Source: a virus. From it: DNA of 22,761 nucleotides. The notes beneath the pieces were generated by a model, which saw only the letters and a list, made by a program, of their open reading frames with translations, was not told the origin of the DNA and did not search any database. Shown here piece after piece: positions 2,714-21,559 of this stretch. Made by a program: the position numbers and the translations under genes. The stretch lies in IMG/VR virus record IMGVR_UViG_3300022885_000082, positions 1 to 22,761 of that record; one strand, 5' to 3'. Numbering within the stretch: the first letter of the stretch is position 1; every line of letters begins with the position of its first letter.

Positions 2714-2760
2714 TCTGGACACAAGTCCTTCTTTGCCAATTTAATCATAATTTCAGCCAT
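2714..2760. repeat. Dispersed early-region repeat, copy B, at the 3' end of the HNH gene
   Basis: Positions 2714-2753 match copy A. Positions 2721-2760 match copy C with one small gap in each. The stop codon of the HNH endonuclease gene (2753-2755) lies inside it. It has the imperfect hairpin GGAC-ACAA-GTCC. Copies B and C are in the same orientation on either side of the endonuclease gene. Confidence 0.75.
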
Positions 2761-5973: not shown

Positions 5974-6590
5974 AATAACTCCTTCAATTGTTCGTCTGAA
6001 CACTCGGAAGGATCGCTTCCTTCGCATTCTACAGATTTAATATCAATAGAATTTCCAAATACCTGCTTCATCTGGTTTGTTATTCTTTCTGTGGCCAGTT
6101 TTCCAGCTTTATCACCATCTAAAAATAGGCAGATTTTATTGCTTAGCGTCAAAATTAATGCCATCCTATACTCATTTAAATCCGTTCCACTTAAAGCAAC
6201 GCAGTTTCTATATCCTCTGGAATGCAAAGAGAGAACGTCAGCCTCGCCTTCTACAATTATTACATCAGAACATGACCAAGCAGCTTCTCTCGCTTTGTGG
6301 AATCCGTATAAATAGTTGGACTTTTTAAAGCCTGTCTCATATTGAAAACCTTTGTTTTCAAGATATCTTACCTTTAGTGCTATAGGTTCTCCCGAAACAG
6401 TATATTGTGGAATGGTCAATACATTTTGTTCTTGCCAGTATCCCCACTCAAAATCAATAGCTACTGACAATTTTATATGATGACTTTCTAGATAACTTAG
6501 TGCGGCAGACGATTGGTTTAGGCACAATTGATGTTTTCTAATACCAAGCTTTCGGTCAAAACTGGCCAGGTTCTCTGTTAATTCACTCAT
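5967..6590 (-). CDS. Primase catalytic core (Toprim) on a separate polypeptide
   Basis: This 207-residue protein matches the catalytic half of DnaG-type primases. Residues 30-90 contain the segment before the Toprim domain (ALSYLESHHI, LTIPQYTVSGEPIALKVRYL). The Toprim fold spans about 109-195, with VEGEAD at 113-118 giving the catalytic glutamate and FLDGDKAG at 156-163 giving the metal-binding aspartates, followed by a DPSE segment near 193-196. It would synthesise RNA primers for phage replication. No zinc-binding domain is attached; a relative of that domain is encoded by the next gene, so the usual domain order is reversed and split. The start is supported by AAAAGGAGAG. It is the first gene of the minus-strand replication operon, beside the putative origin. 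Confidence 0.85.
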   Translation of the reverse strand: MSELTENLASFDRKLGIRKHQLCLNQSSAALSYLESHHIKLSVAIDFEWGYWQEQNVLTIPQYTVSGEPIALKVRYLENKGFQYETGFKKSNYLYGFHKAREAAWSCSDVIIVEGEADVLSLHSRGYRNCVALSGTDLNEYRMALILTLSNKICLFLDGDKAGKLATERITNQMKQVFGNSIDIKSVECEGSDPSECSDEQLKELLC

Positions 6591-7203: not shown

Positions 7204-7212
7204 AGCGAAATA
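7204..7212 (+). promoter_or_regulatory. AGCGAAATA motif, copy 1
   Basis: The 9-mer lies seven bases before the start of the small basic gene at 7219, inside TTAGCGAAATAA. The same 12 bases recur at 21000-21011. It may be a promoter element or simply the leader of this gene; the short distance to the ATG would give a nearly leaderless message. Confidence 0.35.
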
Positions 7213-7218
7213 ATTATT

Positions 7219-7392
7219 ATGAAGAATGAATACAAAATCTTAAAACGATTAAAACGATCAGTACGTACTAGAAGACTAGAAGGTATTAAATTTAAAGCAT
7301 CTGTTTATTCAAAATTAGACAAGCATAATTCTAGACGTACTCGCAAGAGAATTAAAAAAGACTTAATGATTGACGTTGAACGTTGTGGTTGA
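7219..7392 (+). CDS. Small, strongly basic protein, unknown
   Basis: This 57-residue protein has about 21 lysine or arginine residues, with clusters LKRLKRSVRTRR near the start and SRRTRKRIKK near the end. A start ten codons upstream is possible, but this ATG is preferred because the extra residues are hydrophobic and would run through the AGCGAAATA motif. No Shine-Dalgarno sequence is evident. The composition suggests a nucleic-acid-binding protein. It is the first plus-strand gene beside the putative origin, a position where phages often keep early regulators. Arginine-rich antitermination proteins are one possibility, but there is no specific match. Confidence 0.5.
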   Translation: MKNEYKILKRLKRSVRTRRLEGIKFKASVYSKLDKHNSRRTRKRIKKDLMIDVERCG

Positions 7393-7563: not shown

Positions 7564-8295
7564 ATGAGTAGTTGCTACGGACGAAAATTGACGGAAGAAC
7601 AGATAGAATCTATTTTAGAAACTTTTAAGATTAAGGATGGCCAATTATATCGAAAGTGGGAAAGAGGCGGCAAATGGAAGTTAATCGCTAATAAGAATAA
7701 CTGTAACGGCTATTGCCTTGTTGGTGTTCTAAACAAAATGATGTTCTATCATAGACTGGTTTATATACTCACAAATAAGCAAGATGTACCTGTAGGCTAT
7801 ATGATTGATCATATTGACGGAGATACGTTGAATAATAAAATACAGAATTTACGAGTAGTAACCAATCGAGAAAATAAACAAAATTGTGAATCCCATCGAC
7901 TAGGAAGATTAGTAGGTTGCTGTTTCGATAAACACGCTCAAAAGTGGAAGTCGGAAATTAGAATTAATAATAAGAAGATTCACTTAGGCCGTTTCGCTAC
8001 CGAGCAAGAAGCTCATGATGAGTATCAACTTGCGTTAAAATATATTAACGATTTCGTAAATCCAAAACAATTTCGCGACCTTTTAAAGACTAAACCAAAA
8101 GCTGGAGAAATGTTCATGAAGATACTTAAACCTACTCCAAAAGCAGAACCTACTAGAATACAATCAACCACTGATTTTTTAGATCAATTAGAAAGATGCA
8201 TGGCAGTAAAAGAAATCGTTATCTCTAAAGATTATACAGATTCTATAGATTTTACTGAATTTATGGAATTATTTGGGGAGGATATTCTAAAATGA
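7564..8295 (+). CDS. HNH homing endonuclease with AP2-type domain and C-terminal extension
   Basis: The first ~187 residues parallel the minus-strand endonuclease. An HNH_3 nuclease carries YHRLVYIL at 62-69 and DHIDGD at 82-87, followed by LNNKIQNLRVVTNREN. An AP2-like DNA-binding domain follows at about 115-165, with LGRFATEQEAHDEY. A further ~56 residues (from about 188, PTRIQSTTDFLDQLERCMAV onward) have no counterpart in the paralogue and may be a captured tail from an interrupted gene. The start follows CAGAGGAGCAC. The stop overlaps the next ATG (ATGA), so the following gene is probably translated by coupling. The presumed role is self-mobility and marker exclusion; the host activity is untested. 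Confidence 0.9.
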   Translation: MSSCYGRKLTEEQIESILETFKIKDGQLYRKWERGGKWKLIANKNNCNGYCLVGVLNKMMFYHRLVYILTNKQDVPVGYMIDHIDGDTLNNKIQNLRVVTNRENKQNCESHRLGRLVGCCFDKHAQKWKSEIRINNKKIHLGRFATEQEAHDEYQLALKYINDFVNPKQFRDLLKTKPKAGEMFMKILKPTPKAEPTRIQSTTDFLDQLERCMAVKEIVISKDYTDSIDFTEFMELFGEDILK

Positions 8296-8612: not shown

Positions 8613-9089
8613 ATGTCGAACAATAACAAGAAAGGAAAATCAGGCGAACGAGCAGTCGTTAAACTATTAAATGAGCGATTTACAATACAATGTCAAGAAT
8701 TAGGTTGCTTCGCAAGAACTATAGGTTCAGGTAATAGATGGTCTCAGACGGACTGTTTAAGTAAACAAGCATCAGAATCTCTAGCTGGCGACTTAATAAC
8801 TCCAGACTCTTTTAAATATTGTATAGAAAATAAGTGTGGCTATAAATCAATTAGTATCCACGATATCTTTGCAGGCTCAAAACAATTAGATAGCTTTCTA
8901 GTTCAAGCTATCACTGACGCTCAGAGAATCAATAAGTTACCCCTACTTATTTGGAAGTCAGATTATAAGCCGTATATAGTAGGGGTTAAAGAGTTAATAA
9001 ATTCTAAAATCAGCATCCTTTATAACGATTGGTATATCTACAGCTTAACAGACTGGCTAGCACAGGAAGATAAGCAATTTTTTAGCTAA
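8613..9089 (+). CDS. PD-(D/E)XK-fold nuclease, Holliday-junction-resolvase-like
   Basis: This 158-residue protein has the layout of small phage PD-(D/E)XK nucleases. KKGKSGERAVVKLLNERF at 6-23 supplies the first glutamate (Glu12). FARTIGSGNR follows at about 33-42. The core is GDLITP with Asp60, then IENKCGY with Glu72 and Lys74. The last third has the LPLLIWKSD strand. Resolvases of this type cut branched DNA before packaging; related proteins are exonucleases, and the substrate cannot be settled here. GAGGAA stands before the start. The gene lies in the same orientation and close to the sigma-like gene, in the section before the packaging genes. Confidence 0.75.
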   Translation: MSNNNKKGKSGERAVVKLLNERFTIQCQELGCFARTIGSGNRWSQTDCLSKQASESLAGDLITPDSFKYCIENKCGYKSISIHDIFAGSKQLDSFLVQAITDAQRINKLPLLIWKSDYKPYIVGVKELINSKISILYNDWYIYSLTDWLAQEDKQFFS

Positions 9090-9162
9090 AATAATATTTC
9101 TGGGCAAAAAGAAGGAAATCAAAGATTTGAATAGAATATAGAAGATCATAGGAGAATATATA

Positions 9163-9696
9163 ATGAGTAAAAACTTTCAAATATCAACAGAAGAATCAGA
9201 GAAGTTACTGAACATTGCAAGGTCTGTAGCTTCAAAATTCGGTGGATCAGAAGATAATGTTCAAGAAGCTTATAGAATAATGCTAGACATCTATACAAAG
9301 CGAACACAGGCAGGATTACCTATCTCTAAGAGCATACTAAAGCTGCGTGCTACGGGAATTCTATATCACTACACAAACCATAACAAACCAAAACCAGAGC
9401 ATCTGTTTTCAGACTTAGGTGACTCAAAATTTGATAATGTAGAAGATACCAAAAATTCAGATATATTATATAACCTGTCAAAAAAAGAAATATTAACAAA
9501 GATCGAAGCATTGCTCACAAACGACAAGTATTTAATAGGTACAAAATTCGGCTTGTTTGGTTTTGATAAGCTATCATTAAAAGACGCAGCTATTAAATAT
9601 AATATCTCACATAAGAAAATAGAAAAGCTCACAAATTTGGCTATCAAGAACTTAAAAAGCGAAATAGAAAGAGCTGGTATTCCTAATCCTTTTTGA
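9163..9696 (+). CDS. Phage sigma-factor-like transcription regulator
   Basis: This 177-residue protein resembles a small sigma-70-type factor. Residues 15-45 (LLNIARSVASKFGGSEDNVQ and on) fit region 2.1-2.2, including the D-x-VQE segment used to contact RNA polymerase. Residues about 111-168 fit region 4: IEALLTNDKYLIGTKFGLFG, then a helix-turn-helix LSLKDAAIKYNISHKKIEKL with an LKNLK-like end. No clear region 2.4 is visible, so -10 recognition may be unusual. The likely role is directing host RNA polymerase to phage late promoters; in position it is equivalent to lambda Q. A copy of AGCGAAATA lies near the end of its own coding region, 43 bases before the next gene. The start follows AGGAGAATATATA. 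A sigma-like HTH regulator without sigma activity is possible. Confidence 0.6.
   Translation: MSKNFQISTEESEKLLNIARSVASKFGGSEDNVQEAYRIMLDIYTKRTQAGLPISKSILKLRATGILYHYTNHNKPKPEHLFSDLGDSKFDNVEDTKNSDILYNLSKKEILTKIEALLTNDKYLIGTKFGLFGFDKLSLKDAAIKYNISHKKIEKLTNLAIKNLKSEIERAGIPNPF
9658..9666 (+). promoter_or_regulatory. AGCGAAATA motif, copy 2 (inside the sigma-like gene)
   Basis: This copy lies in the last codons of the sigma-like gene, 42 bases before the ATG at 9709. It encodes Ser-Glu-Ile in frame, so it may be there by chance, but its distance to the next gene resembles that of copies 3 to 5. Confidence 0.3.
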
Positions 9697-9708
9697 GAGT
9701 TAAAAAAT

Positions 9709-10389
9709 ATGAGATATATAATTATTGTCAGTGTCTTATTAATGGCAGGCTGTGCTACTCAAATTTCTCCTGCAAAATCAGAATTAAAAGAATCCTCTAT
9801 AAATACATCAGGTGGAGATAGAAAAATTACTTCTATTTATATTGACGAAACTACAGGGAGTAAAACAGATTCTAAATCTGCATCAGGAACTTCTGCTTCT
9901 TCGAGTATAATCTCTAGCGGAGATATCAAAGACTGGAGTGCTGGTATCCCTGAATTACAACTATCAAGCATTAATTCTGGACAAGCCCAATCAATCGCTT
10001 CAATCGCTTCTGCAACTAAAAATCCAATGACCATATTCTTTATTCTGTCAGCAGTTTCATTTGTAATAGCTATTCCAATTTTAGTATATGTCAGTAAACC
10101 AATAGGCATTCTTTTATTCGTTGCCTCTGCTGGTCTGTTAGCAACTGCCCTACTAGCCACTGCTGCACCAATTACATTTGGTATATCAATTCTCGCTATT
10201 TTAGGTATCGTTGGTTACATGTATTTTAATAAGAAGAAAGAAAATAATAAGGATTCAGCACTAAAGACAATAGTATCTACCATTGAAACTATGCCTATTC
10301 AAGTTCAAGAACTAATAAAAGAATCTATTAAAGAAAAAGATGACGGTTCAATTAAAGAAGTAGTAACAGAAGTCAAATCTAAACTATGA
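9709..10389 (+). CDS. Lipoprotein with three C-terminal membrane segments
   Basis: The protein starts with a basic residue and a hydrophobic segment ending in LLMAGC, so Cys15 is a likely lipidation site. Residues 16-105 are serine-rich and probably extracytoplasmic. Three hydrophobic segments follow at about 107-128, 131-152 and 154-173, then a charged tail (KKKENNKD onward) of about 50 residues. A lipid anchor plus three transmembrane helices is unusual for a phage protein. Its place shortly before the presumed cos site corresponds to lambda's lysis cassette, where Rz1 is a lipoprotein, so an envelope-disrupting or superinfection-exclusion role is possible; neither is shown. The start has no strong ribosome-binding site. 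Its last four bases overlap the next gene as ATGA. Confidence 0.65.
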   Translation: MRYIIIVSVLLMAGCATQISPAKSELKESSINTSGGDRKITSIYIDETTGSKTDSKSASGTSASSSIISSGDIKDWSAGIPELQLSSINSGQAQSIASIASATKNPMTIFFILSAVSFVIAIPILVYVSKPIGILLFVASAGLLATALLATAAPITFGISILAILGIVGYMYFNKKKENNKDSALKTIVSTIETMPIQVQELIKESIKEKDDGSIKEVVTEVKSKL

Positions 10390-10826
10390 GTGTTAAAATG
10401 AAAGAAGTATTATATCATCATTTGGCAGAACTTCGAGATAACTCGTTATTTATATTTAAGTCAGATAGACAAAATAAGAATGGGTTATTTGCGTACGGTT
10501 ACCTAAAGAAAGTTAGGACTACTAAAAATATCTTGTTCGTTTATTCGTACTTCCTAGATATAGAACATATGTCTAATCTAGCCCATGCTCCAATGGAATT
10601 ATTTACTGCTACTGAAGCTAGGATACATACTTCTAATTTAATAGGTGTAACAGAAATAATGAATAAGAATAAAGTTAATTATGATATATTAGATGATGTA
10701 ATACATATGCCGGGGTTTCAGAAACCAAAGGTAATCGGGCAGATACACGCGAAATGGTTTGAGAATGCTATACCCAACGATGGATTTTATATGTACGAAG
10801 CAATAACAATAGCAGAAGGAAAATAA
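10386..10826 (+). CDS. Unknown phage protein
   Basis: I do not recognise this 146-residue protein. It begins by an ATGA overlap with the lipoprotein gene, so translation is probably coupled; a second ATG 12 bases on is also possible. The protein has alternating strands and short helices, many aromatic residues and no cysteine, signal peptide or membrane segment (LRDNSLFIFKSDRQ, then VRTTKNILFVYSYFLDIEHM). Such a composition fits a small soluble globular protein. It is followed two bases later by another unknown gene. Confidence 0.65.
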   Translation: MSVKMKEVLYHHLAELRDNSLFIFKSDRQNKNGLFAYGYLKKVRTTKNILFVYSYFLDIEHMSNLAHAPMELFTATEARIHTSNLIGVTEIMNKNKVNYDILDDVIHMPGFQKPKVIGQIHAKWFENAIPNDGFYMYEAITIAEGK

Positions 10827-10828
10827 TT

Positions 10829-11035
10829 ATGAGAATACCAAACGAAAAAGACAACCATGTTTACAGATTAGCTTACGAAAATTATCTTCTAGAAATAGAG
10901 GATATTGATTTAATTATGGAGTACGTAATAGAAGTCTTGAGATGTAGATTTGTAATGGCAGAAGTAATACTAAAAGAAGATGCCAATGCTTGGAATAGGT
11001 ACTGCGATAATTTCAACTGGACAGGTATAGAATAA
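10829..11035 (+). CDS. Unknown small acidic protein
   Basis: I do not recognise this 68-residue protein. It is acidic and mostly helical (LLEIEDIDLIMEYVIEVLRC), with two cysteines and a WNRYCDNFNWTG end. AGAAGGAAAA in the previous gene's last codons is a reasonable ribosome-binding site. It is the last gene before the presumed cos region and therefore probably the last gene of the right arm in the packaged chromosome. Confidence 0.6.
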   Translation: MRIPNEKDNHVYRLAYENYLLEIEDIDLIMEYVIEVLRCRFVMAEVILKEDANAWNRYCDNFNWTGIE

Positions 11036-11109
11036 TTAATAGCCACATTATTATAATGTAATTACTAATAAATTAGGGGCAACGAATATATTATAGCCAA
11101 ACATTTAGC

Positions 11110-11127
11110 GGCGAGATCACATTTTCT
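11110..11127 (+). repeat. 18-bp direct repeat, left copy
   Basis: GGCGAGATCACATTTTCT is identical at 11315-11332, 205 bases downstream. A ten-base part, GAGATCACAT, recurs inside the large-terminase gene at 12882. The pair may be terminase-binding sites or a recombination scar. Confidence 0.8.
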
Positions 11128-11166
11128 TACAATTTATAAAGTTCATACACTCCGGTATGCTTCACT

Positions 11167-11210
11167 CAGTCTGATTTAATTACGCCCAAGCTAATTAAAT
11201 AGATTGACTG
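11167..11210. repeat. Two-part hairpin in the presumed packaging region
   Basis: ATTTAATTA (11174-11182) and TAATTAAAT (11192-11200) pair perfectly around a nine-base loop. CAGTC (11167-11171) and GACTG (11206-11210) form an outer stem, leaving a small asymmetric internal loop. There is no T-tract after it, so it is not an ordinary terminator. Confidence 0.7.
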
Positions 11211-11314
11211 GCCTAGCTTATAAGCTAAAACTGGAGAGCTACTATAGAAATTGGAGTAACTACTAGAGGTGGGGGGCATAGGTTCTCCGGAGTAGTTATA
11301 AAATAAAGAGAATG

Positions 11315-11332
11315 GGCGAGATCACATTTTCT
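11315..11332 (+). repeat. 18-bp direct repeat, right copy
   Basis: This is the second exact copy of GGCGAGATCACATTTTCT. It ends 29 bases before the small-terminase start, in the leader of that gene. Confidence 0.8.
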
Positions 11333-11361
11333 AAGTACATATTATAATCATGGGAGACATT

Positions 11362-11802
11362 ATGGCAACAGCAAAACAAATACGCAGTATATATAATATA
11401 GATGATGCTCAGCTTCAAAAGTGGCGAGGTCTAGGGTTACCGGCTATTAAGTTAGGTCGTGGATTTCAATATGAGCCGGACAAAGTAGAGGAATTTTATA
11501 AAGCGTATATTCAGCCTAATCAGAAAAATATAACAGCACAAGATATTACCTTAGCTGAAATTAAAAGAAAGCTTGAATTAGAACGTACTGAAAATATAAA
11601 GATAAAAAACGACATATTAAGAAAAAGATACATTGATAAGAAAGATGTCGAAGTTATATTAATCGCTCGTGCTTCTGCTTTTAAAGAAGCTATACTTAGA
11701 ATAAAACAAGCTGTATTAATTCTAAGTAACAACCCATCTTTAGAACCGGCAATAGATAAAATTATAAGCGAAGCTTTAGAAGAACTGTTGAGTAAAAGCT
11801 AA
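11362..11802 (+). CDS. Small terminase subunit, Nu1-like
   Basis: The chosen ATG is preceded by GGGAG six bases upstream; an ATG four codons earlier would place that sequence inside the gene. The 146-residue protein has an N-terminal helix-turn-helix (KQIRSIYNIDDAQLQKWRG, then LPAIKLGRGFQY), like the winged helix of lambda Nu1 that binds cosB. Residues about 50-110 form a charged helix (ITLAEIKRKLELERTENIKI) for assembly, and the C-terminus (SLEPAIDKIISEALEELLSK) would contact the large subunit. It would recognise the packaging site directly upstream. Its stop overlaps the large-terminase ATG by one base (TAATG). Confidence 0.85.
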   Translation: MATAKQIRSIYNIDDAQLQKWRGLGLPAIKLGRGFQYEPDKVEEFYKAYIQPNQKNITAQDITLAEIKRKLELERTENIKIKNDILRKRYIDKKDVEVILIARASAFKEAILRIKQAVLILSNNPSLEPAIDKIISEALEELLSKS

Positions 11803-13592
11803 TGAAATGGACGAAAGAAGAACGGCGGATCTTAAGACATAAAGAAGCTGAACCTATTATCAATTGGATGGAAGATAACTATCTATTGGATGGTCCTTCT
11901 GTATCAGAACCCGGTCCTTATAGGTTTTCTCGAAGCCCATATTTCAAGGGTATAGCTGAAGCCTTTGAAACAACTAAAGAGGTAGTAGTTCGTAAATCTG
12001 CTCAGTGTGGATATTCAGTTTTCTTTGTAGGTTTAATTTCCTATATCATAGACAACGCTCCGAGCGATATGTTATTGGTTTTTCCTAATGCAGATTCTGG
12101 TGGAAATTTTTTAGAAGAAAAGGTATATCCCAGCTTCCGCAAGCAAAAATGGTTAAAAAAACTACTACCTAATACAGATAAAGATTTTACAAGAACAGGG
12201 ATAACCTTGGCTAATTGTTCTATTCATTTAGGATATTCAGGTTCACCGACTAGTTTATCTTCTAGGTCGATAAGGTATATTTTTGCTGATGAACTATCGA
12301 AATTTCAATCTAATAATCGCGAGGCGGACCCCGTCTCCTTAATGGGTGAGCGACAGATAACTTTCGGTTCAAGAAGTAGACTGTTGTACGGAACAACTCC
12401 AACACACAGCGAAGATAACATTTCAAAGCTGTTTGATTCGGCTGGCGAGCAATACTATTATCACATTCCGTGTCCTCATTGCAATAACTACTACAAGCCC
12501 GAAACGAAGCTTATCAAGTGGAATATACCTGAAGAATGGAAAGACACAGCTATAAGACGCGAAAGATTTATACTTGAAAATGATTGTGTTCATTTAGAAT
12601 GTCCTAAATGTCTAGGTAAAATAACAGAGGAAATGAGAATCAGATCATTAGAGTATGGAATTTGGCTAGCCCTGAATCAGTGGATTACTGCTAATGGAGA
12701 AATAGTAGGCGAAGAGAATGAGTACGCTCAACGTAAAGCATTCCAAATAAATAGATTAATGACCCCGTGGGGTACGTTAGTTGCTCATGCGGTTGAATTT
12801 CAAAGATCAATTGGTGATCCTAACAAGATAAGGAACTTTACCAATGCATGGGAAGGCTTACCGTTCAAACATATAAGCCGTGAGATCACATCTAACGACA
12901 TACAACAATACTGTAATGCTACCACGACCCGTAGGGAAATGACACCATTAGAAGGCTTTCTAGTCGCTTCTGCTGACACTCAAGATAATAGCTTTCACTG
13001 GAGTATTTGGCAGATTGGCATATCTTCAGCACATATTGTAGATTACGGAGTTGCTCAAGATCAACAGACATTAAAGGAAGCTGTATTCAAAGATTTTGGT
13101 GGGAAAGTTCCTCAAATACTAGCCATAGACGCGAGAGGTCATAGAACTTCAGATATCTATCAATTTGCAAGTCAAGACGAAAGAATAATTTGTGTATTAG
13201 GTGGCAATAACGAATTCTATCCACCGTTTAAAAAAACTGCAACAGCAGATTATCGAGCGAAAGCATATACGATTGACACTATCTTTTATAAAGATAAATT
13301 GTATAGTTGGCTTGAAAACGGAAAAGTCACCACATTTATTAATATAGACGATTATTGGTATCGATCTATAGCAGCGGAAAAGAAGATTTCATATATGGTT
13401 GGGGCAAAGGTTAAATGGAGATACGAAGAGGTTGTCAAAGATAAGAATCACCAGTTAGATTGCTTCGTATATGCAATGTTTGCCTATGACTATCTCAGTT
13501 CTACCACTAATTCTTCTCAATACACGGCTCCAAAACCTAAGAGAATCATCGCTCCAGTTAATCTAGTAGGGACTAATATAAGGCGTTTCTAA
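11802..13592 (+). CDS. Large terminase subunit, GpA family
   Basis: This 596-residue protein is a lambda gpA-type packaging ATPase and nuclease. The ATPase domain has the GpA version of Walker A, RKSAQCGYS at 64-72, and Walker B YIFADE at 159-164. A CPHC/CPKC zinc ribbon follows (Cys224, Cys227, Cys267, Cys270). The nuclease domain has SADTQDN with Asp392, AIDARGHRT with Asp443, and NHQLDCFVYA with Asp553. It cuts concatemeric DNA at the packaging site and drives it into the prohead. GpA terminases normally generate cohesive ends, which supports a cos phage. The start is coupled to the small subunit. The length is slightly below lambda gpA (641 residues) but all motifs are present. Confidence 0.95.
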   Translation: MKWTKEERRILRHKEAEPIINWMEDNYLLDGPSVSEPGPYRFSRSPYFKGIAEAFETTKEVVVRKSAQCGYSVFFVGLISYIIDNAPSDMLLVFPNADSGGNFLEEKVYPSFRKQKWLKKLLPNTDKDFTRTGITLANCSIHLGYSGSPTSLSSRSIRYIFADELSKFQSNNREADPVSLMGERQITFGSRSRLLYGTTPTHSEDNISKLFDSAGEQYYYHIPCPHCNNYYKPETKLIKWNIPEEWKDTAIRRERFILENDCVHLECPKCLGKITEEMRIRSLEYGIWLALNQWITANGEIVGEENEYAQRKAFQINRLMTPWGTLVAHAVEFQRSIGDPNKIRNFTNAWEGLPFKHISREITSNDIQQYCNATTTRREMTPLEGFLVASADTQDNSFHWSIWQIGISSAHIVDYGVAQDQQTLKEAVFKDFGGKVPQILAIDARGHRTSDIYQFASQDERIICVLGGNNEFYPPFKKTATADYRAKAYTIDTIFYKDKLYSWLENGKVTTFINIDDYWYRSIAAEKKISYMVGAKVKWRYEEVVKDKNHQLDCFVYAMFAYDYLSSTTNSSQYTAPKPKRIIAPVNLVGTNIRRF

Positions 13593-13598
13593 TTAGAA

Positions 13599-13607
13599 AG
13601 CGAAATA
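13599..13607 (+). promoter_or_regulatory. AGCGAAATA motif, copy 3
   Basis: This copy lies just past the large-terminase stop and 34 bases before the gpW start. It is followed by TTGAGTG; copy 5 has ACTAGTG at the same place, so AGTG three bases after the motif is shared by both. It is a candidate promoter for the head genes. Confidence 0.45.
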
Positions 13608-13641
13608 TTGAGTGGTACCCATTATAAACGGAACATATATT

Positions 13642-13884
13642 ATGGCAATCGACTATACCTCTCTAGAGACTCCATCCGACAGTCAAATGGTTATCCTATT
13701 AAAACACGCAATTTCTCAATTGCTTCTAGGTGGACAAAGCTATTCTATTGATGGTCAATCGTTCACAAGAACAGATGTAGATAAGCTGTCTAAGATGTTG
13801 AAATATTATGAAGATAAAGCTGCTGGTAATACATTCCCCAAATTTATACCTATAGGCTTCAATCAATCTAGGAACCCTAAATAA
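13642..13884 (+). CDS. gpW-like head-tail joining protein
   Basis: The protein has 80 residues from this ATG, which follows ACGGAACATATATT; a GTG 10 codons upstream would overlap the AGCGAAATA region and add an unlikely N-terminus. Residues 14-57 match the gpW fold: a helix MVILLKHAISQLLLGG, a short beta hairpin QSYSIDGQSFTRTD, and a second helix VDKLSKMLKYYEDK. In lambda, gpW is added after packaging to form the site for FII and tail joining. The gene lies between terminase and portal, exactly as in lambda, and its stop abuts the portal ATG. A ~20-residue proline-containing tail extends beyond the usual 68-residue length. Confidence 0.8.
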   Translation: MAIDYTSLETPSDSQMVILLKHAISQLLLGGQSYSIDGQSFTRTDVDKLSKMLKYYEDKAAGNTFPKFIPIGFNQSRNPK

Positions 13885-15186
13885 ATGGCAAATCAAAAAA
13901 CCACAGCTAAAAAATTAGAAGAAGCAAAGCAAGAATTTAAGCTTCAAGTATATACTCAGGCGTTGCAAGGTAATAATAACTCCCCTTGGTCTTCGCTCTA
14001 TAAACAGGGTGACAATAGAGATTCCTACGAATTAGGATACGATTCCGCCTCTCTTAGAGAAAGAAGCAAACTATTCTTTTCCAATGATCCCGTTTATCGA
14101 CCCTTGATAAATAATCTCGTTACTAATATAGTTGGTAGCGGGTTTGTATTCAAGAGCAATAATTTAGAAGCAGAAGATAAATTCTATTTATGGACCAAAG
14201 ATAGTAATGAATCACAGCTAAGCTGGGAAGATTTCTTATCAACTGTAGTTCGTTGGTTCTTTATCTTTGGAGACGTATTATTAATAAAAAGAGAAGGAAA
14301 AATAATTTTAATTGATCCTCAAAGAATAGGGTCTTTATCGGAGACGTTTGAAGGTCATACAGTTATAGATGGCGTTGAAATAGACGACTTAACATCTAAT
14401 CCAACATTTTTTCATATTAATACTGCTGGTGGCAAAAGTATAAGAATACCAGCGGATGAATGTATCTTCATAGCCAATAAAGTTCTTCCTTCTCAAATAA
14501 GAGGGGAGCCGATGCTCGCACAAATAGCAGACTTATTGGAGTCTATATATCAGTATACAACGGCGGCCGTTCTCGGAGCTAGAATAGCTGCATCGATGTC
14601 CTTAATTATAACTAGTCCGGACGTGGCAGGATTCGAAAACTACGCAGCAGGTCAAGTTTCTTTAACTAGTCCTACCATGAGTTATATGCCGGAAGGTAGT
14701 AAAATAGAACAAATTAAGGCTGAGCAACCAATCGGTAACTATGACGTTTTTCAGAACAATATACTAGATCAGATATGTATGGCTGTAGGATTAACTACTG
14801 CCAGTTTAGGGCAAGTGCAGAAACTTAACTTTTCAGCGTCAAAATTAAGTATTGAAATTGCAAGAGATACTTACAGAAAATGGCAGAGATTCTTTGGCGA
14901 CTATCTAATTCTCAAGCTGTGGAACTGGAAAATTGGAATGGACGTAGAAGTAACTATTAGAGGTTCAGGATTTAAATCGTATGACAAGCAAGCTGATTAT
15001 CAAGCTGAATCATTAGCCTTAGAAACCGGTCTAGAAACATTTGAGAATATACTCGCAGCACGCGGTATATATCTTGACGAACATATACAAAAACTTAAAG
15101 AAGAGCAAGTAAAGTTACAAGGAATTAAATTAAACCATTCCAGCATGACACAGGTAGATAAAGATGAGGAAATAAATAATGCATAA
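13885..15186 (+). CDS. Portal protein, lambda family
   Basis: This 433-residue protein matches lambda-type portals, which form the dodecameric ring for DNA entry. RDSYELGYDSASLRERSKLF at about 45-65, then the VYRPLINNLVTNIVGSGF segment, is the N-terminal signature. LIDPQRIG at about 145-152, GEPMLAQIADLLESIYQYT around 215-230 and the long C-terminal helix region starting SASKLSIEIARDTYRKWQRF at about 315-335 also fit. It is shorter than lambda gpB (533 residues), with most of the difference at the C-terminus, so proteolytic trimming may be minor here. It directly abuts the gpW gene and overlaps the protease gene by eight bases. Confidence 0.92.
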   Translation: MANQKTTAKKLEEAKQEFKLQVYTQALQGNNNSPWSSLYKQGDNRDSYELGYDSASLRERSKLFFSNDPVYRPLINNLVTNIVGSGFVFKSNNLEAEDKFYLWTKDSNESQLSWEDFLSTVVRWFFIFGDVLLIKREGKIILIDPQRIGSLSETFEGHTVIDGVEIDDLTSNPTFFHINTAGGKSIRIPADECIFIANKVLPSQIRGEPMLAQIADLLESIYQYTTAAVLGARIAASMSLIITSPDVAGFENYAAGQVSLTSPTMSYMPEGSKIEQIKAEQPIGNYDVFQNNILDQICMAVGLTTASLGQVQKLNFSASKLSIEIARDTYRKWQRFFGDYLILKLWNWKIGMDVEVTIRGSGFKSYDKQADYQAESLALETGLETFENILAARGIYLDEHIQKLKEEQVKLQGIKLNHSSMTQVDKDEEINNA

Positions 15187-16309
15187 GATAGTAAATAAGA
15201 AAGGTATCATTTATGTCCTTGGGTCGCTATCAAAATATGGTACACTAGAAGCTAAAGGTACTGACAGCTATCTGTCTATCAGACAATCGATAGTTGAACT
15301 AGAAGCCTCTAAGTCAATAGACGAAATAGCCATTTACATTGATAGTCCTGGTGGGCAAGTAGATGGATTATTTGACACCGCTGATTTAATCAAAGACAGC
15401 ATTAAACACACTTCAGCTTTTATTAGTGGTTGTGGCTGCTCAGCGGCTTATTTAATAGCTAGCCAGTGCAATATTATATATGCCGAGCAAGGCAGTATCG
15501 TTGGAAGCATAGGTGTTTTAAAGGCATTACAAGATACCAGTAAGCAGGATGAAATAGCAGGTATTAAAAATATAGTAATTGCTAGCGGAATAAAAAAGGG
15601 GAGATTAAACCCTGGAAGCGAAATTACTAATGAAGACATTAGTTCTATTCAAAGCAAGGTCACGTACTTTGCCGATTTATTTGCAAGCTATGTAAAACAA
15701 GGACGAAATATGAACGATGAAGAAATAAAAAATATAAAAGACGGAGATTCTTATATCGCCGAAGAAGCTATTGATTATAAACTAATAGACGGACTAGTTA
15801 AATATACTGATTTCGTCGCGGGAACAATCGAAATGAAGAAAGAACCAATGGAAGCAGAAGTAGCAGAAGTAGCAGAAGTATTAAAAGCAGAAGTAGTAGA
15901 AGTAGTCGAAGACAATGGTTCCGAAGTTGAAGAACTTAAGAAAATAATTGAAGACTTAAAAAAGCAAATTGAAGATATGAAGAATGTCGCTGAACCGGTC
16001 GCTGAGGAAGATGATAAAGAAGATGAAGACGAAGAAGACGAACCGGAAATTACTGCTAGTTTAAGTTTAATAGATTCGTATATGCTAGCTTCCGGAAATG
16101 ATAAGGATTTGGTTTTAGAAGCCATTTCTAAAAAATATACAATCGAGCAAGTCATAGAAAAGGCTGAATCCAAATTAGTAATTTCTAATCTTAAAACTTA
16201 TAATAAGAATAACGATAAAGATATGGTCTCTAAATTGCTTCCGTACTGTGACAGTGAAGCTGATGCAATTGCCCTTGCCGACTTTTACAAATCTGAGAAT
16301 AAGAACTAA
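15179..16309 (+). CDS. S49-family prohead protease with fused scaffold-like region
   Basis: The first ~215 residues are a SppA/lambda-C type serine protease: DSPGG at 55-59, SGCGCSAAYLIAS at 83-95 with the likely nucleophile Ser88, GSIVGSIGV at 105-113, and a candidate catalytic lysine in GIKKGR (139 or 140). Residues 219-290 are acidic and coiled-coil-like (VEELKKIIEDLKKQIEDMK), beginning with a repetitive EVAEV stretch. The remaining ~85 residues are helical. This matches lambda C with its nested Nu3 scaffold. An in-frame ATG at 15833, preceded by GGGAACAATCGAA, could start a separate scaffold protein; this is possible but not shown. The protease would mature the portal and scaffold during prohead assembly. 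Confidence 0.88.
   Translation: MHKIVNKKGIIYVLGSLSKYGTLEAKGTDSYLSIRQSIVELEASKSIDEIAIYIDSPGGQVDGLFDTADLIKDSIKHTSAFISGCGCSAAYLIASQCNIIYAEQGSIVGSIGVLKALQDTSKQDEIAGIKNIVIASGIKKGRLNPGSEITNEDISSIQSKVTYFADLFASYVKQGRNMNDEEIKNIKDGDSYIAEEAIDYKLIDGLVKYTDFVAGTIEMKKEPMEAEVAEVAEVLKAEVVEVVEDNGSEVEELKKIIEDLKKQIEDMKNVAEPVAEEDDKEDEDEEDEPEITASLSLIDSYMLASGNDKDLVLEAISKKYTIEQVIEKAESKLVISNLKTYNKNNDKDMVSKLLPYCDSEADAIALADFYKSENKN
15854..15895 (+). repeat. 9-bp tandem repeat in the protease-scaffold linker
   Basis: GCAGAAGTA occurs three times in tandem (15854-15880) and again at 15887-15895. It encodes the repeated A-E-V of the acidic linker. Such a repeat can change length by slippage without shifting the frame. 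Confidence 0.8.
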
Positions 16310-16331
16310 TTTACAATAGGAATATAATAAA

Positions 16332-16748
16332 ATGGCTGATTTAACTAAAAACACTCCCCGCGAATACAAGATGGTCGGCGTCGAAAAGATCGTAAACCTA
16401 CCTCTCGCAGCTTCTATAATTATCTATGAAGGTGGCTATGTATGCACGAACTCATCGGGCGATGCATTAAATGGTGATAACGGGCAGACGAAATTCATTG
16501 GTATTGCCAAAGCTAAAGCTACTACTGCTGATGATGTTAACATAGATGTTATACTCGAAGGCGTATTTAAATTGGAAGTAACAGGCGTTGATGATGATAA
16601 CGATATCGGTGCCAGTGTATACTTAGCTGGTGATGATAATGCTTATACTTTGTCTAGCACATCGAATATTAAAGTAGGTATCGTGCAGGAATGGATCAGT
16701 GGGACAACTTGCTGGGTATTTTTACAGTCTGACACTCTTCGCGTATAA
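16332..16748 (+). CDS. Capsid decoration (cement) protein
   Basis: This 138-residue, beta-rich protein has the layout of DUF2190/gpD-like capsid cements: EGGYVCTNSSGDAL, a TKFIGIAKAKA strand pair, GVFKLEV, IGASVYLAGDD, NIKVGIVQEW and CWVF near the end. It would bind the outside of the mature capsid and stabilise it, and its location between protease and major capsid genes corresponds to lambda D. The C-terminal half is paralogous to the C-terminal domain of the protein at 436-1353. The leader AGGAATATAATAAAATGGC is identical to that of the gene at 21065. Confidence 0.8.
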   Translation: MADLTKNTPREYKMVGVEKIVNLPLAASIIIYEGGYVCTNSSGDALNGDNGQTKFIGIAKAKATTADDVNIDVILEGVFKLEVTGVDDDNDIGASVYLAGDDNAYTLSSTSNIKVGIVQEWISGTTCWVFLQSDTLRV

Positions 16749-16781
16749 TTAACAAACATATAACACACAGGAAAAAATAAT

Positions 16782-17738
16782 ATGTCTAAATTCAATCATT
16801 CAATACTCTTACAGGCGGCCTTCACTAATCAATATAAGTTAGGTAAGGAAAGTACCTATGGAGTGAGAATCTCTAGATTACTTGAAAATACCTCGGCTAG
16901 TTCTCTAAGAGCAATAGCTATTGGTTCCAGTAAGCCGGTTGAAAAATGGGTTGGTAATCGTTCTACTAAGCCTTTAAAAGACTTCAAACTCGAAGTTCAG
17001 AACGAGCTATACGAAACGAACTTTTCAATCCCTAGAGAAACTTGGGAAAGAAATGAAGCCAATCTATTTGCTGATGAAAGCAGACAGATGGGCAATTATA
17101 TGGCTGACCACTGGAGCAAATTAGTCGCCCAAACTCTAATAGCCAATCCTACTTGGTACGACGGGGTCAATTTATTCGGTACTCATCCTATTATAAATAC
17201 TACTCAGGTAAACGATCTTACTAGCACAGAGATTGCTTCTGCTAGCATAGTTTTAAATACTCAGCCTTCTGCGGAAGAGGCTGGTGATATTATAAACGAA
17301 ACGTTAATTTATATTAATTCGGTAATCGTAAATGATGCGAACGTCGCTATTAATTCCAGTGCTAAACGCTTTTTAATAATTTGCGGTACGGCCAAAATGG
17401 CCGGAGCATATAGAAGTGCGATTATGCGTCAGAATTTGAGTAGCGGTTCAACAAGTCCAGTAGACGGATTAATTCGCAGCGGATATGTAATTGACGTAGT
17501 ACTTGATAATGCTCTAAGTGCTGGAACCACAAAGGTATACTTTGCGGTAGAAGATATGGCGAATAAAGCATTTATCCTGCATTCAGAATCTAACGTCCGA
17601 TTTGAATTAACTGGTACAGGAAATAATGATTCGCTCGCTTTCCAAACAAACGCTGTTCAGGTTGGCTGCAGTCAGATGAGGTCTCTAGCCCTAGGCGATT
17701 ATACCAAGATTTTCAGGCTCACTCACGCTACAGCATAA
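16782..17738 (+). CDS. Major capsid protein, Mu gpT-like HK97 fold
   Basis: This 318-residue protein resembles the Mu gpT major head subunit family. After a short N-terminal segment (LLQAAFTNQYKLGKES) it has the typical ETNFSIPRETWERNE strand and helix, ADESRQMGNYMADHWSKLVA, a WYDGVNLFGTHP motif, and later KRFLIICGTAKMAGAYRSAI and VYFAVEDMANKAFILHSES. The C-terminal end shows no linker to a decoration domain. It forms the capsid shell. The start follows CACAGGAAAAAATAAT. The next feature is a strong terminator, as expected for the most highly expressed late gene. Confidence 0.9.
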   Translation: MSKFNHSILLQAAFTNQYKLGKESTYGVRISRLLENTSASSLRAIAIGSSKPVEKWVGNRSTKPLKDFKLEVQNELYETNFSIPRETWERNEANLFADESRQMGNYMADHWSKLVAQTLIANPTWYDGVNLFGTHPIINTTQVNDLTSTEIASASIVLNTQPSAEEAGDIINETLIYINSVIVNDANVAINSSAKRFLIICGTAKMAGAYRSAIMRQNLSSGSTSPVDGLIRSGYVIDVVLDNALSAGTTKVYFAVEDMANKAFILHSESNVRFELTGTGNNDSLAFQTNAVQVGCSQMRSLALGDYTKIFRLTHATA

Positions 17739-17774
17739 GATTTAGGAACTCCCTAAAAGAAAATTAAAAGAAGC

Positions 17775-17816
17775 AAGGCGGACATAACCTGATTAGCAGC
17801 TTATTCCGCCTTTTTT
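17775..17816 (+). terminator. Rho-independent terminator after the major capsid gene
   Basis: AAGGCGGACATAA pairs with TTATTCCGCCTT as twelve base pairs with one bulged C, followed by six T. It lies 36 bases past the capsid stop and 21 before the next start, so downstream genes need read-through or a new promoter. Confidence 0.9.
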
Positions 17817-17837
17817 CTTTTTTGGGCTAAAATAAAT

Positions 17838-18299
17838 ATGATTGTAGATATTATTAGTGCAGGTCCATCAGCTAAAGAATACCGTCCATGCGGGGCTATT
17901 ACCGTTGGAGTAAATAGGTCGGTAATGCTATTCGAGTGTGACTACTGGGTAGTACTAGATTTTGAAGGCTACGAATTAATAAGTCCTTTTGTTAAAGGCA
18001 TGCCTCAAATAGTCACTTGCGGTAACGCTTGCAGGAAGCTAGACAACCTCGGAGTACCGTATATTAAGACAGCCTACGGAGATATACCCTACCAATATAA
18101 ACCAACTGAGTTTTCAATAGTAGCTGCTAAATATTTCGTACATAAAGAATTAAAAGCTTCTGTAGTAAATATTTATGGCGATGATAAAGTAGGTGGTGTT
18201 GACTGTGCAGATAATATAGATAGCAGCAGAATAAATAATAGATGGAAGCGAGAAATTGTATGTGAAGGGCTTCTAAAACAATACATGGAAATAAATTAA
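17838..18299 (+). CDS. Unknown Rossmann-like protein inserted in the head gene cluster
   Basis: I cannot assign this 153-residue protein with confidence. The N-terminus, IISAGPSAKEY then ITVGVNRS, has the G-x-GPS-like loop of DUF115/MptE-type and other nucleotide- or sugar-nucleotide-binding folds, and WVVLDFEGYELI is consistent with a second strand. Later, VNIYGDDKVGGVDCADN recalls a nucleotide-sugar binding pocket. It has five cysteines and no membrane segments. Lambda has no gene at this position. It sits just after the capsid terminator and ends one base before the next start. GCTAAAATAA at 17826-17835 immediately precedes its ATG, with no clear ribosome-binding site. An independently expressed accessory gene, possibly for glycan or surface modification, is one reading. 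Confidence 0.55.
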   Translation: MIVDIISAGPSAKEYRPCGAITVGVNRSVMLFECDYWVVLDFEGYELISPFVKGMPQIVTCGNACRKLDNLGVPYIKTAYGDIPYQYKPTEFSIVAAKYFVHKELKASVVNIYGDDKVGGVDCADNIDSSRINNRWKREIVCEGLLKQYMEIN

Positions 18300-18300
18300 A

Positions 18301-18870
18301 TTGTCAATATTTAGAGATGAAATTTCAGTTAATGATTTTAAACACGGAATGTTCAACGCTTATGAACTAGCTGAATCGGTAGTAATTCGTAGATATCCAA
18401 AGATTATTGCCCGTGCATCGGGTAATCAAGTCGCTGGTGAGATAACTAGTATTACGATCGACACAGCAGGCGAAGGATACGGTGCCACGCCTTCCTATAG
18501 CGTTAGTGGTACTGGTACTAGTTTAGTTCTAGATGTCATTACATTAACAGGGGGAGCTATTACGGGCATCTCTATAGCTAGTAGTTCTTCTGATTGGACT
18601 GGGCCTGCTACAATTCAATTCACTGGTGGATATTTAGATACAACGTTGAATGCAGTTATTGTTAGGCAGGGAGTTTCAAAAGTTAACGGAAGACTTAATA
18701 TTACTGAAGGATTAAAAGCATCATTCAGCAGATCAGACTATCCAGATTTAGATACTGGCAGAGATAAAATAATATTAAAGAAGAGATTAGATGATGCCTC
18801 TACGTCGGAAGCTGGGCTAGTTAATATATTAATAGAAAATTCGGCTATGTATACAGTACAGGTTAAATAA
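18301..18870 (+). CDS. Head-tail connector-like protein with an inserted beta domain
   Basis: This 189-residue protein starts at a TTG one base after the previous stop, with a weak GGA upstream; an ATG at residue 17 is the next candidate but would remove conserved-looking N-terminal sequence. Residues 1-45 and 111-189 look like one continuous small connector domain (SVVIRRYPKIIAR, then TTLNAVIVRQGVSKVNGRLN), in the position of lambda FI/FII. Residues 46-110 are two half-repeats of the GI-T-I-x-x-G-GY type domain found in phage tail and fibre proteins: EITSITIDTAGEGYG and GAITGISIASSSSDW. Such a domain would project from the neck. The function follows from position. Confidence 0.6.
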   Translation: MSIFRDEISVNDFKHGMFNAYELAESVVIRRYPKIIARASGNQVAGEITSITIDTAGEGYGATPSYSVSGTGTSLVLDVITLTGGAITGISIASSSSDWTGPATIQFTGGYLDTTLNAVIVRQGVSKVNGRLNITEGLKASFSRSDYPDLDTGRDKIILKKRLDDASTSEAGLVNILIENSAMYTVQVK

Positions 18871-19437
18871 ATGTCATTAAAAATAGATTTCAAATCTCTA
18901 ACTAAAGAAATTAAGCATCTTGAAAAAAAGCTGAACAGAGAAATAATTAACGCAACTAAAAGAAGTCTTCGAGGAATTGGTAAGGTTGATACTAATCGTA
19001 TGAAAAAAGAAGGTCTCAAAGAATTTAAAGAGACAAAGATTCTAAAGAAAACATTCAAAAGAAAGTTATACGGTAGAAATTTAAATGATTTAGAACTTAG
19101 CATGTGGTCTGGATTCCCTGGTGCAGCTATATTTCAAACAGGTGGTACGGTATCTGCTAAGCAGAAGTTAATGCCTATATTCTTTCAAAAGACTTCACGA
19201 ATGGTTATGAAAGCAGCTTTTAAATCAGGAAAGTTTATAACCTTCAAATCAAAAAAAGGTAATATAATAATCTTTGATAGTGAATTAAAAGTACCAGTAG
19301 GCGTACTTAAAAGTTCTATAAAACAAAAGAAGAGGCTTTCATTCTTCGAGAATCATTTAGAGAATAATGCAGAACACGAAGAAATATTAAACAAAGAATT
19401 CGATAAGTCCTTAGAAAAGTTAATGACGGAGAACTAA
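18871..19437 (+). CDS. Tail completion protein, Z-like (DUF6441-like)
   Basis: This 188-residue basic protein has a helical N-terminal third with many K and R (LTKEIKHLEKKLNREIINAT), followed by LSMWSGFPGAAIFQTGGTVS, which corresponds to the W-x-x-x-P...F-x-x-G segment of DUF6441-type and HK97 gp10/lambda Z-like tail completion proteins. KLMPIFFQKTSR and a beta-rich region (VIIFDSELKVPVGVLK) complete it. These proteins join the tail to the neck. The start abuts the previous stop (TAAATG), so coupling is likely. It is strongly basic, which is common in this family. Confidence 0.65.
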   Translation: MSLKIDFKSLTKEIKHLEKKLNREIINATKRSLRGIGKVDTNRMKKEGLKEFKETKILKKTFKRKLYGRNLNDLELSMWSGFPGAAIFQTGGTVSAKQKLMPIFFQKTSRMVMKAAFKSGKFITFKSKKGNIIIFDSELKVPVGVLKSSIKQKKRLSFFENHLENNAEHEEILNKEFDKSLEKLMTEN

Positions 19438-19440
19438 TAA

Positions 19441-19911
19441 ATGGCTGACTCTATTCTAGAGAAAATATCGCAGAATTTACTGACTACGCTAAATGAAATG
19501 TCTATCGCTAATGGGTATTCTGCAAATATATTATTTAGCAGGCCCCTAAGAAAGGGACGCGATCCATTACCAGATACTGGAGTATTATTTCTTACACAAT
19601 TACAAGAAACAGCAGAACAAGACGTTTCAAATCAACTCCAACGTTGGATTGCTTCATATGAAATAGAAATATATTTATTCTTTTCAGAAGATTTAACTAC
19701 TACAGTAGATAGTTCAAAAGCTAATATATTTGCAGACATTACAAAGCTGCTAATGACAGACGCACAGCGTGGAGTGCCTCACCTAGCCTTTGACACTTTC
19801 GTTAACGGCTTTGAATCTTTCATGGATGCAGAGGGGAGTTTCGAGGGTATCTCTATAGAATTTGATGTAGATTTCCGGGTGTTTAGAAATGATCCATATA
19901 TTACAGGATAA
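19441..19911 (+). CDS. Tail terminator protein, U-like
   Basis: This 156-residue protein has the order of the lambda U / tail terminator fold: a first helix (ILEKISQNLLTTLNEM), a strand at VLFLTQLQE, an RWIASYEIEIYLFFSED strand pair, a helix DITKLLMTDAQRG, and a final EGISIEFDVDFRVFRNDPY strand. Tail terminators cap the tail tube and fix its length before head attachment. The gene starts three bases after the previous stop and is followed by a ~70-base gap holding an AGCGAAATA motif. Position between the Z-like and tube genes agrees with lambda order. Confidence 0.7.
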   Translation: MADSILEKISQNLLTTLNEMSIANGYSANILFSRPLRKGRDPLPDTGVLFLTQLQETAEQDVSNQLQRWIASYEIEIYLFFSEDLTTTVDSSKANIFADITKLLMTDAQRGVPHLAFDTFVNGFESFMDAEGSFEGISIEFDVDFRVFRNDPYITG

Positions 19912-19938
19912 AAGCAAATTTTGCGAACAAAAATAATA

Positions 19939-19947
19939 AGCGAAATA
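19939..19947 (+). promoter_or_regulatory. AGCGAAATA motif, copy 4
   Basis: This copy is in the 71-base gap before the tail tube gene, 35 bases before its ATG. It is followed by TAGTATTG. Confidence 0.45.
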
Positions 19948-19982
19948 TAGTATTGAACACGAACTAAATAGGAATTAAAATT

Positions 19983-20921
19983 ATGGCTACAGTACAACGA
20001 ATGAATTTATTAGCTGCAAAAGTTGAATCAACAGTGGGAACAGCTGTTTCCACCGCGGCAGTTGATTCACAGTTTCACGTATTTAATACGAACGTACAAA
20101 CTAACATAGATTTTGTAACTAGACAATTAAATGGATCGCTAAGTAATTTAACCAGCGTCCACGGACCTAGAAGCGTAGTAATCACATTTTCGATTTATAT
20201 GACTGGTAATGGCAGTGCTGGAATCCCCGCATATGCTACTCTATTTTTAGAAGCTTGTGGTTTAAAAGAAACTACTGCCAGCTTTAAATTCAATCCGAGT
20301 TCGTTCCAGGACGATCATACTTCACTTTCAATGGCAATCTATAAAGACGGTACCGTCACAAAAGCAAGAGGCTGCAGAGGCAATGTCGACTTTGTATTTG
20401 AGCACGGGAGGCCCATCAGATTAGATTTCACTTTTACTGGTGTAGAAGACGGAGTTTCAGACGTTAGTTCTCCAACTGGCCAGACGTGGAGTACTTTAGT
20501 TCCGCCCAGGGTTGCAAGTGGTACGTTCACATTAGGTTCATTTACTCCAGTACTTAGTACGTTTAATATAGGTACTAATAATGACGTACAATTACGCCCA
20601 ACCATTGCTAATGATGAGGCATACATTAGTTCTATTATTGTTAATCGCAATTTTAGTGGACAGGCGGACCCAGAAATGGAACTAGTGGCAACTAACAATT
20701 ATTTTCTTCAGCTAAAAAATCATACAGAACAGGCACTTTCGATTAGTGTGGGAACTGTTCAATATAATAAAATACTTATTACAGCCCCTAAACTACAATG
20801 GAACACGCTTCAAGAAAGTTCTCGTCAAGGGTTAAATAGTCTTACAGCGAGTTTTTCGTTGAACGCTGATTTAAGTGTTGGTATAGACACCGAACTTGAA
20901 ATAAGCTTCCCACAAACCTAA
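19983..20921 (+). CDS. Tail tube protein
   Basis: This 312-residue protein is the expected major tail tube subunit of a lambda-like siphophage. The N-terminus (MNLLAAKVESTVGTAVSTAA) is the usual short helix and loop. The body is beta-rich, with the SVVITFSIYMTGNGSAG segment and VDFVFEHGRPIRLDFTFTGV corresponding to the tube-forming hairpins, and a C-terminal SLTASFSLNADLS strand. It would polymerise on the tape measure to form the tube. A second beta-rich part after about residue 170 suggests an extra surface domain, as in lambda V. The leader AAATAGGAATTAAAATT resembles that of the decoration gene. A rho-independent terminator follows. Confidence 0.8.
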   Translation: MATVQRMNLLAAKVESTVGTAVSTAAVDSQFHVFNTNVQTNIDFVTRQLNGSLSNLTSVHGPRSVVITFSIYMTGNGSAGIPAYATLFLEACGLKETTASFKFNPSSFQDDHTSLSMAIYKDGTVTKARGCRGNVDFVFEHGRPIRLDFTFTGVEDGVSDVSSPTGQTWSTLVPPRVASGTFTLGSFTPVLSTFNIGTNNDVQLRPTIANDEAYISSIIVNRNFSGQADPEMELVATNNYFLQLKNHTEQALSISVGTVQYNKILITAPKLQWNTLQESSRQGLNSLTASFSLNADLSVGIDTELEISFPQT

Positions 20922-20949
20922 ATATTCACTACAGAATATATTACAAATG

Positions 20950-20983
20950 AAGTCTGCTATCCAAAAGATTGCAGGCTTTTTTT
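20950..20983 (+). terminator. Rho-independent terminator after the tail tube gene
   Basis: AAGTCTGCTATC pairs with GATTGCAGGCTT around CAAAA, with one T-T mismatch and one G-T wobble, followed by a T-tract of about nine. It lies 28 bases past the tube stop. Confidence 0.85.
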
Positions 20984-21001
20984 GTTGGCTTAGATTAAAT
21001 T

Positions 21002-21010
21002 AGCGAAATA
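21002..21010 (+). promoter_or_regulatory. AGCGAAATA motif, copy 5
   Basis: This copy lies 18 bases after the terminator tract and 54 bases before the ATG at 21065. A new promoter is required here if the terminator is efficient, which makes this the most persuasive copy. ACTAGTG follows it. Confidence 0.5.
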
Positions 21011-21064
21011 ACTAGTGACGATCATATCTTTGGATTTAATAACATTTAATAGGAATATAATAAA

Positions 21065-21559
21065 ATGGCAAGTAGACTTGACGGGGATTTTTATATAAAC
21101 GGCAATATAGCTAGTTCAACAATGTCAATACCAGCAGGAAGCGTATCTAATGCTTCTATATTAGCCTTAGCTGGAATTCAAGCTGAGAAATTAGAACATC
21201 AGCATAAAATTCTATATGCTCAAGGTTCAGCAGTTACAGCGGCAGATTCTAGAAATCCAATATTTGTTGTCACCGGCTTGACTGGTAATATTATCAGCAT
21301 TAAAGCTGGTGCAGTTACTAAATCGATTGGCGATTCAATATGTGATGTAGATGTCCTTAAGAACTCAACTACAGTATTATCTTCTCCAATGAATATAGAT
21401 TCTGCTGATGCAAACTACGCTTTGATAACCGGAACTGTTTCGGTAGCCTCGCTTTCCCAAAATGACGTTTTAGAAGTTGACATCGACGCTACTATAGGAA
21501 CTGGCACACTTGCATTGGGAATATTTGTAATAATAGTAATACACGAATTAGCTCAATAA
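21065..21559 (+). CDS. Phage structural protein, fibre- or spike-like beta protein
   Basis: This 164-residue protein begins ASRLDGDFYINGNIASSTMS, then IPAGSVSNASI and AGIQAEKLEHQHKILYAQ. This head piece is common in small structural proteins of phages with Mu-like or lambda-like heads. The rest is a beta sandwich (IFVVTGLTGNIISIKAGAVT to ALGIFVIIVIHE). It could decorate the capsid or tail. It has no equivalent in lambda. It has a separate transcription unit by appearance: it follows a terminator and an AGCGAAATA motif and has the same 22-base leader as the capsid cement gene, which suggests similar expression and perhaps a capsid-surface role. Confidence 0.6.
   Translation: MASRLDGDFYINGNIASSTMSIPAGSVSNASILALAGIQAEKLEHQHKILYAQGSAVTAADSRNPIFVVTGLTGNIISIKAGAVTKSIGDSICDVDVLKNSTTVLSSPMNIDSADANYALITGTVSVASLSQNDVLEVDIDATIGTGTLALGIFVIIVIHELAQ

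Follow-up and report, generated by a model that had tools for sequence, protein, structure and literature searches.

A predicted short sigma factor and a candidate one-box late promoter in a lambda-ordered phage genome fragment

Genomic context of the sigma-like gene

We analyzed the IMG/VR virus record IMGVR_UViG_3300022885_000082, with emphasis on a sigma-like gene at 9163-9696 and on the 9-mer AGCGAAATA, which recurs ahead of rightward genes and may serve as a late promoter. The record is exactly 22761 bases long and identical with the stretch analyzed here (the window); its GC content is 35%, it is evidently a fragment cut at both ends, and its source is a tailed phage, an uncultured virus of bacteria. 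The leftward block contains primase-like and DUF3987 genes, whereas the rightward block runs in the order resolvase-like (8613), sigma-like (9163), lipoprotein/spanin-like (9709), TerS, TerL (gpA), gpW-like, portal, S49 protease, decoration, capsid and tail genes, its head genes following the lambda order A-W-B-C-D-E. The principal features are as follows (lengths in amino acids, aa; dG, folding free energy).

8613..9089, + strand: PDDEXK/RusA-like resolvase, the gene preceding the sigma-like gene (Pfam PF24608, 1.9e-21; phrog_244, 2.4e-14)
9163..9696, + strand: short sigma-like factor of 177 aa with two domains, residues 1-76 resembling region 2 and residues ~99-170 resembling region 4
11350..17738, + strand: head genes in lambda order, that is, TerS, TerL (gpA), gpW-like, portal, S49 protease, decoration and capsid (Pfam, PHROGs)
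17770..17822, + strand: intrinsic terminator 3' of the capsid gene (dG -20.0 kcal/mol, z -4.9, then a T run)
20943..20985, + strand: intrinsic terminator between a tail gene and the fifth copy of AGCGAAATA (dG -17.5 kcal/mol, z -5.4, T run)

The product of 9163-9696 is a predicted sigma factor

Based on profile searches and structural models, the 9163-9696 product is very probably a short sigma factor, with regions 2 and 4 in the order and spacing that are right for a two-domain sigma. The original prediction had described region 2-like and region 4-like segments from the translation and called for a profile comparison with sigma models. When the protein was scanned against NCBIfam, all 12 matches were sigma factors, mostly over region 4; the best was RpoS (E value 1.4e-4, residues 87-173, region 4), which lay below the curated cut-offs, while TIGR02985 and TIGR02937 aligned with residues 13-168. 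Calibration with the same scan gave a similarly weak value for the proven sigma factor gp36 of phiEco32 (4.1e-5) and no match for T4 gp55. A Pfam scan of the protein yielded no match (Sigma70_r4_2 was not hit), and a PADLOC scan no defence-protein match. By tblastn against plasmids, the four weak and remote matches were all to sigma factors, and no homologue was found in IMG/VR or among phages.

Region 4 was recognized by sequence and region 2 by fold only. AlphaFold2 modelled the N-terminal 81 residues alone as three helices with a predicted local distance difference test (pLDDT) score of 86.8, and the model of the whole protein was poor (pLDDT 55.5). Foldseek searches against PDB and BFVD returned nothing significant by themselves. 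When the Foldseek candidates for the N-terminal half were re-aligned, sigma region 2 structures filled rows 1-13, led by the N-terminal domain of SigE (Z 8.0, root mean square deviation 2.5, 69 of 74 residues), and unrelated helical proteins started at Z 6.2 and below. Re-alignment of the whole-protein model agreed: almost all of the first 32 rows were sigma chains.

Distribution and placement of AGCGAAATA

Counting on both strands of the whole record revealed exactly five copies of AGCGAAATA, all on the + strand and none on the - strand, at the positions that had been predicted:

7204..7212, + strand: copy 1, 6 nucleotides (nt) upstream of the ATG at 7219 and between the leftward and rightward blocks; the least certain of the five
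9658..9666, + strand: copy 2, within the coding sequence of the sigma-like factor (codons K-S-E-I-E) and 42 nt upstream of the start at 9709
13599..13607, + strand: copy 3, 34 nt upstream of the gpW-like gene
19939..19947, + strand: copy 4, with 35 nt between it and the tail gene at 19983
21002..21010, + strand: copy 5, directly behind the terminator, with 54 nt separating it from the gene at 21065

Each of the five lies a short way upstream of a rightward start codon, with 6-54 nt in between, and four are intergenic, copy 2 being the exception; the predicted range of 34-54 bases for copies 2-5 also held. The start of the gpW-like gene (13642) agrees with its homology, which begins at residue 1. 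The strong terminator said to precede copy 5 directly proved real by folding, and AGTG does follow copies 3 and 5 three bases downstream. None of the six one-mismatch copies of AGCGAAATA was intergenic and the box is therefore sharp. No second promoter box, -35 element or conserved -10-like hexamer was found at a fixed spacing from AGCGAAATA. What precedes the late genes is a low-copy, conserved one-box motif with no -35, an observation that is sensitive to the gene call at 7204.

The expected number of copies was 0.42, and none of 100 shuffles reached five. However, an equally surprising 9-mer appeared in 16, 31 and 56 of 60 Markov simulations of orders 2, 3 and 4, respectively, and the bare count is not significant after correction for all 9-mers. 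Placement gave a different picture: four rightward intergenic regions share AGCGAAATA, and when these regions were dinucleotide-shuffled, a 9-mer of any kind common to four arose in 0 of 500 and in 5 of 3000 shuffles, and in 14 of 3000 when 30 nt of upstream coding sequence were added. Four or more copies were counted for 59 9-mers, of which only AGCGAAATA has every copy within ~90 nt before a rightward start. In 23 related records, AGCGAAATA was present in 0-1 copies each.

A proposed mode of late transcription and its alternatives

In lambda, late control is exerted by Q antitermination. For the present phage, we propose that a phage sigma factor directs the host polymerase to a one-box late promoter, AGCGAAATA, in the style of T4 gp55 or phiEco32 gp36, and we give this reading a rough probability of 0.58. 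The small two-domain sigma would probably be made at the end of an early or middle rightward transcript, bind the host core RNA polymerase and guide it to promoters private to the phage. The single box would be the essential part of such a promoter and would be read by region 2 in the way of an extended -10, no -35 being detectable. Copy 2 would then drive a unit from 9709 to TerL; copy 3 the gpW-like, portal, protease, decoration and capsid genes, as far as the terminator at 17.8 kilobases (kb); copy 4 the tail gene at 19983, as far as the terminator at 20.96 kb; and copy 5 the genes from 21065 on. Initiation at the boxes would do the work of Q antitermination in lambda: a polymerase without the Q modification would need fresh starts past terminators, and the boxes could supply them. 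That the sigma factor reads AGCGAAATA is suggested by their co-occurrence and by precedent; the start positions and expression timing of the late units are likewise inferred.

Several observations weigh against this reading. Neither TerS (stretch 11036-11349) nor the capsid gene has a AGCGAAATA box directly before it; copy 2 sits in coding sequence; and copy 1, as a promoter, would yield a nearly leaderless mRNA. The significance of AGCGAAATA depends on calling 7204 intergenic, and under mechanical gene calling, one copy (probably that at 7204) becomes coding and the intergenic signal drops to chance level. On the protein side, the region 2 half alone gave no sequence match, and Z scores of 6-8 are middling for helical models, so that the fold and sequence evidence should be read jointly. 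No relative with both the sigma and the box was found. After the 17.8 kb terminator, moreover, no exact copy occurs before 19939, which leaves the genes at 17838-19911 without a supported box of their own.

It is possible, although we consider it unlikely, that the sigma is real and regulates phage genes while AGCGAAATA is a coincidental repeat, the true promoters being other, more degenerate sequences. The count after the all-9-mer correction, the chance-level signal under mechanical gene calling and the absence of a box before TerS would all fit such a coincidence, whereas it would have to accommodate the sharing among four regions that only 5 of 3000 shuffles matched, the position of all five copies shortly upstream of starts on a single strand, which sets AGCGAAATA apart from the other 58 repeated 9-mers, and the 0-1 copies in related records.

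A smaller chance is left for the protein being a late activator of the ArpU/Ltr type, which would bind DNA and act together with the host sigma, with AGCGAAATA as its binding site rather than a -10. Its gene occupies the same position as those of ArpU-like region-4-only proteins in related phages and of RinA/Ltr upstream of the late genes in S. aureus phages (PMC13123087), and its sequence evidence is strongest for region 4; yet the models give its N-terminal half the fold of sigma region 2, and AGCGAAATA is followed by no conserved -10-like hexamer at a fixed distance. The ArpU family model TIGR01637, which is weak even in controls, had no match in the record at E values up to 1, so that a remote kinship may still exist.

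We think it very improbable that AGCGAAATA is a repressor operator or an mRNA 5' leader element unrelated to the sigma: one-strand placement near start codons would also suit a leader element, but the sequence is not palindromic, its sites have no Rfam match and no common RNA fold, and copy 5 lies directly after a terminator, where a promoter would be needed. Least credible is a sigma that chiefly reprograms host genes and is no phage late regulator, for although phage sigmas altering host development have been described in Bacillota (PMC9429907), the gene lies between the resolvase and packaging modules and a common box precedes the structural genes.

Comparison with known late regulators

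The proposed sigma-promoter pair most resembles two characterized systems. gp36 of phiEco32 and its relative in phage 7-11 are phage sigma factors resembling those of the extracytoplasmic function (ECF) type that recognize the box tAATGTAtA (PMC4331800). Like the present system, phiEco32 combines a small phage-encoded sigma with a short, well conserved, low-copy intergenic one-box motif (PMC4331800), and its sigma matches NCBIfam with similar strength. In contrast, the two proteins have no meaningful BLAST alignment, the boxes differ, phiEco32 has a 77.5 kb genome of another type than the lambda-ordered fragment described here, and no anti-sigma factor was recognized in the present record. T4 gp55 is of comparable size (185 aa versus 177 aa), and the T4 late promoter, TATAAATA at -13 to -6, is likewise a single box ending in AAATA without a -35 (PMC1524935). 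On the other hand, the box begins with AGCG here and with TAT in T4, and neither a T4-like sliding clamp nor a gp33 co-activator was recognized in the record.

With respect to gene position, the sigma-like gene stands where lambda has its late activator, as originally predicted: it follows a resolvase-type gene and precedes possible lysis and terminase genes in a genome with the head order A-W-B-C-D-E. Where lambda has one antiterminated operon, however, this record has internal terminators and several promoter-like boxes spaced along it. The original prediction also proposed a private late-transcription system that had replaced Q. The sigma-like protein and the promoter-like placement and orientation of AGCGAAATA speak for such a system, while the replacement of Q is seen only as a lack of matches to the Q antiterminator families PF03589 and PF06530 in this record, a fragment for which other Q families were not each scanned. 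We regard it as tentative, and rather doubtful, that an orphan two-domain sigma has displaced Q completely as the late regulator of a lambda-ordered tailed phage, reads its own new one-box promoter AGCGAAATA and splits the late operon into separately terminated units.

Sigma-like genes upstream of terminase genes, mostly with region 4 only, are common in related phages, so their presence is not new. TIGR02937 matched in 16 of 49 records, the present one included; a region-4-like gene lay ~0.6-4.6 kb upstream of TerL in nine other records, and in two further records the match fell in a TerS-like gene. In FP_Epona, the genes are ordered resolvase, sigma-like, methyltransferase, TerS and TerL. 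The present phage differs from the ArpU/Ltr/RinA systems of Gram-positive phages in that the proteins of that kind found in this analysis match the region 4 half only, like ArpU itself, and in that its record has multiple boxes. The related phages with sigma-like genes showed no intergenic shared 9-mer of their own beyond shuffles. Thus, this phage has its sigma-like gene where ArpU or Q would stand and shares its domain composition and its layout of multiple promoters with gp55 and gp36.

Searches for relatives located no close TerL in IMG/VR or GTDB contigs and no close relative among phages. TerL is ~26% identical to its best matches, and alignments of the TerL, decoration and tail proteins reach only distant phages (~22-40% identity); these had no recognizable homologue of the sigma-like protein (P0001), and none of those checked has more than one copy of AGCGAAATA.

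This mode of control is already known from T4 and phiEco32, of which the present phage appears to be a further example. If the proposal is true, a compact pair of sigma factor and promoter would have been predicted purely from sequence, in a gene order for which antitermination is the textbook mechanism, and late control would have been swapped between initiation and antitermination while the order of the head genes stayed fixed. To our knowledge, few small phage sigma factors with one-box promoters have been characterized; such factors show how little sequence a sigma needs.

Other repeats and genes in the record

The 10-mer GCTAAAATAA had been put forward as a related element. Both of its copies were found where predicted:

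9085..9094, + strand: copy 1, overlapping the resolvase stop codon
17826..17835, + strand: copy 2, between the capsid terminator and the ATG at 17838, from which it is 2 nt away

We rejected it as a related promoter element because of poor statistics (3 of 100 shuffles reach two copies) and poor geometry: the copy at 17826 ends only 2 nt from an ATG, too close for a normal promoter. The gene that begins there (17838-18299) encodes a 153-aa protein without a PHROGs match and immediately follows the capsid terminator, ahead of the head-tail genes.

The same leader, AATAGGAATATAATAAAATGG, occurs before the decoration gene (16310-16340) and before the gene at 21065 (21041-21070), apparently as a common ribosome-binding region. 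A 314-nt non-coding stretch (11036-11349) lies 5' of TerS and contains a direct repeat, GGCGAGATCACATTTTCT, at 11110 and 11315 (spacing 205 nt), as well as a hairpin around GGGGGGCATAGGTTCTCC; it is a possible cos/packaging site or origin. On the - strand, the DNA primase at 5440-6590 is apparently divided between two genes that overlap, one for an N-terminal part of the zinc-binding type and one for a toprim part. Finally, two similar HNH endonuclease genes on opposite strands (2753-3316, -; 7564-8295, +) are probably copies of one mobile gene.
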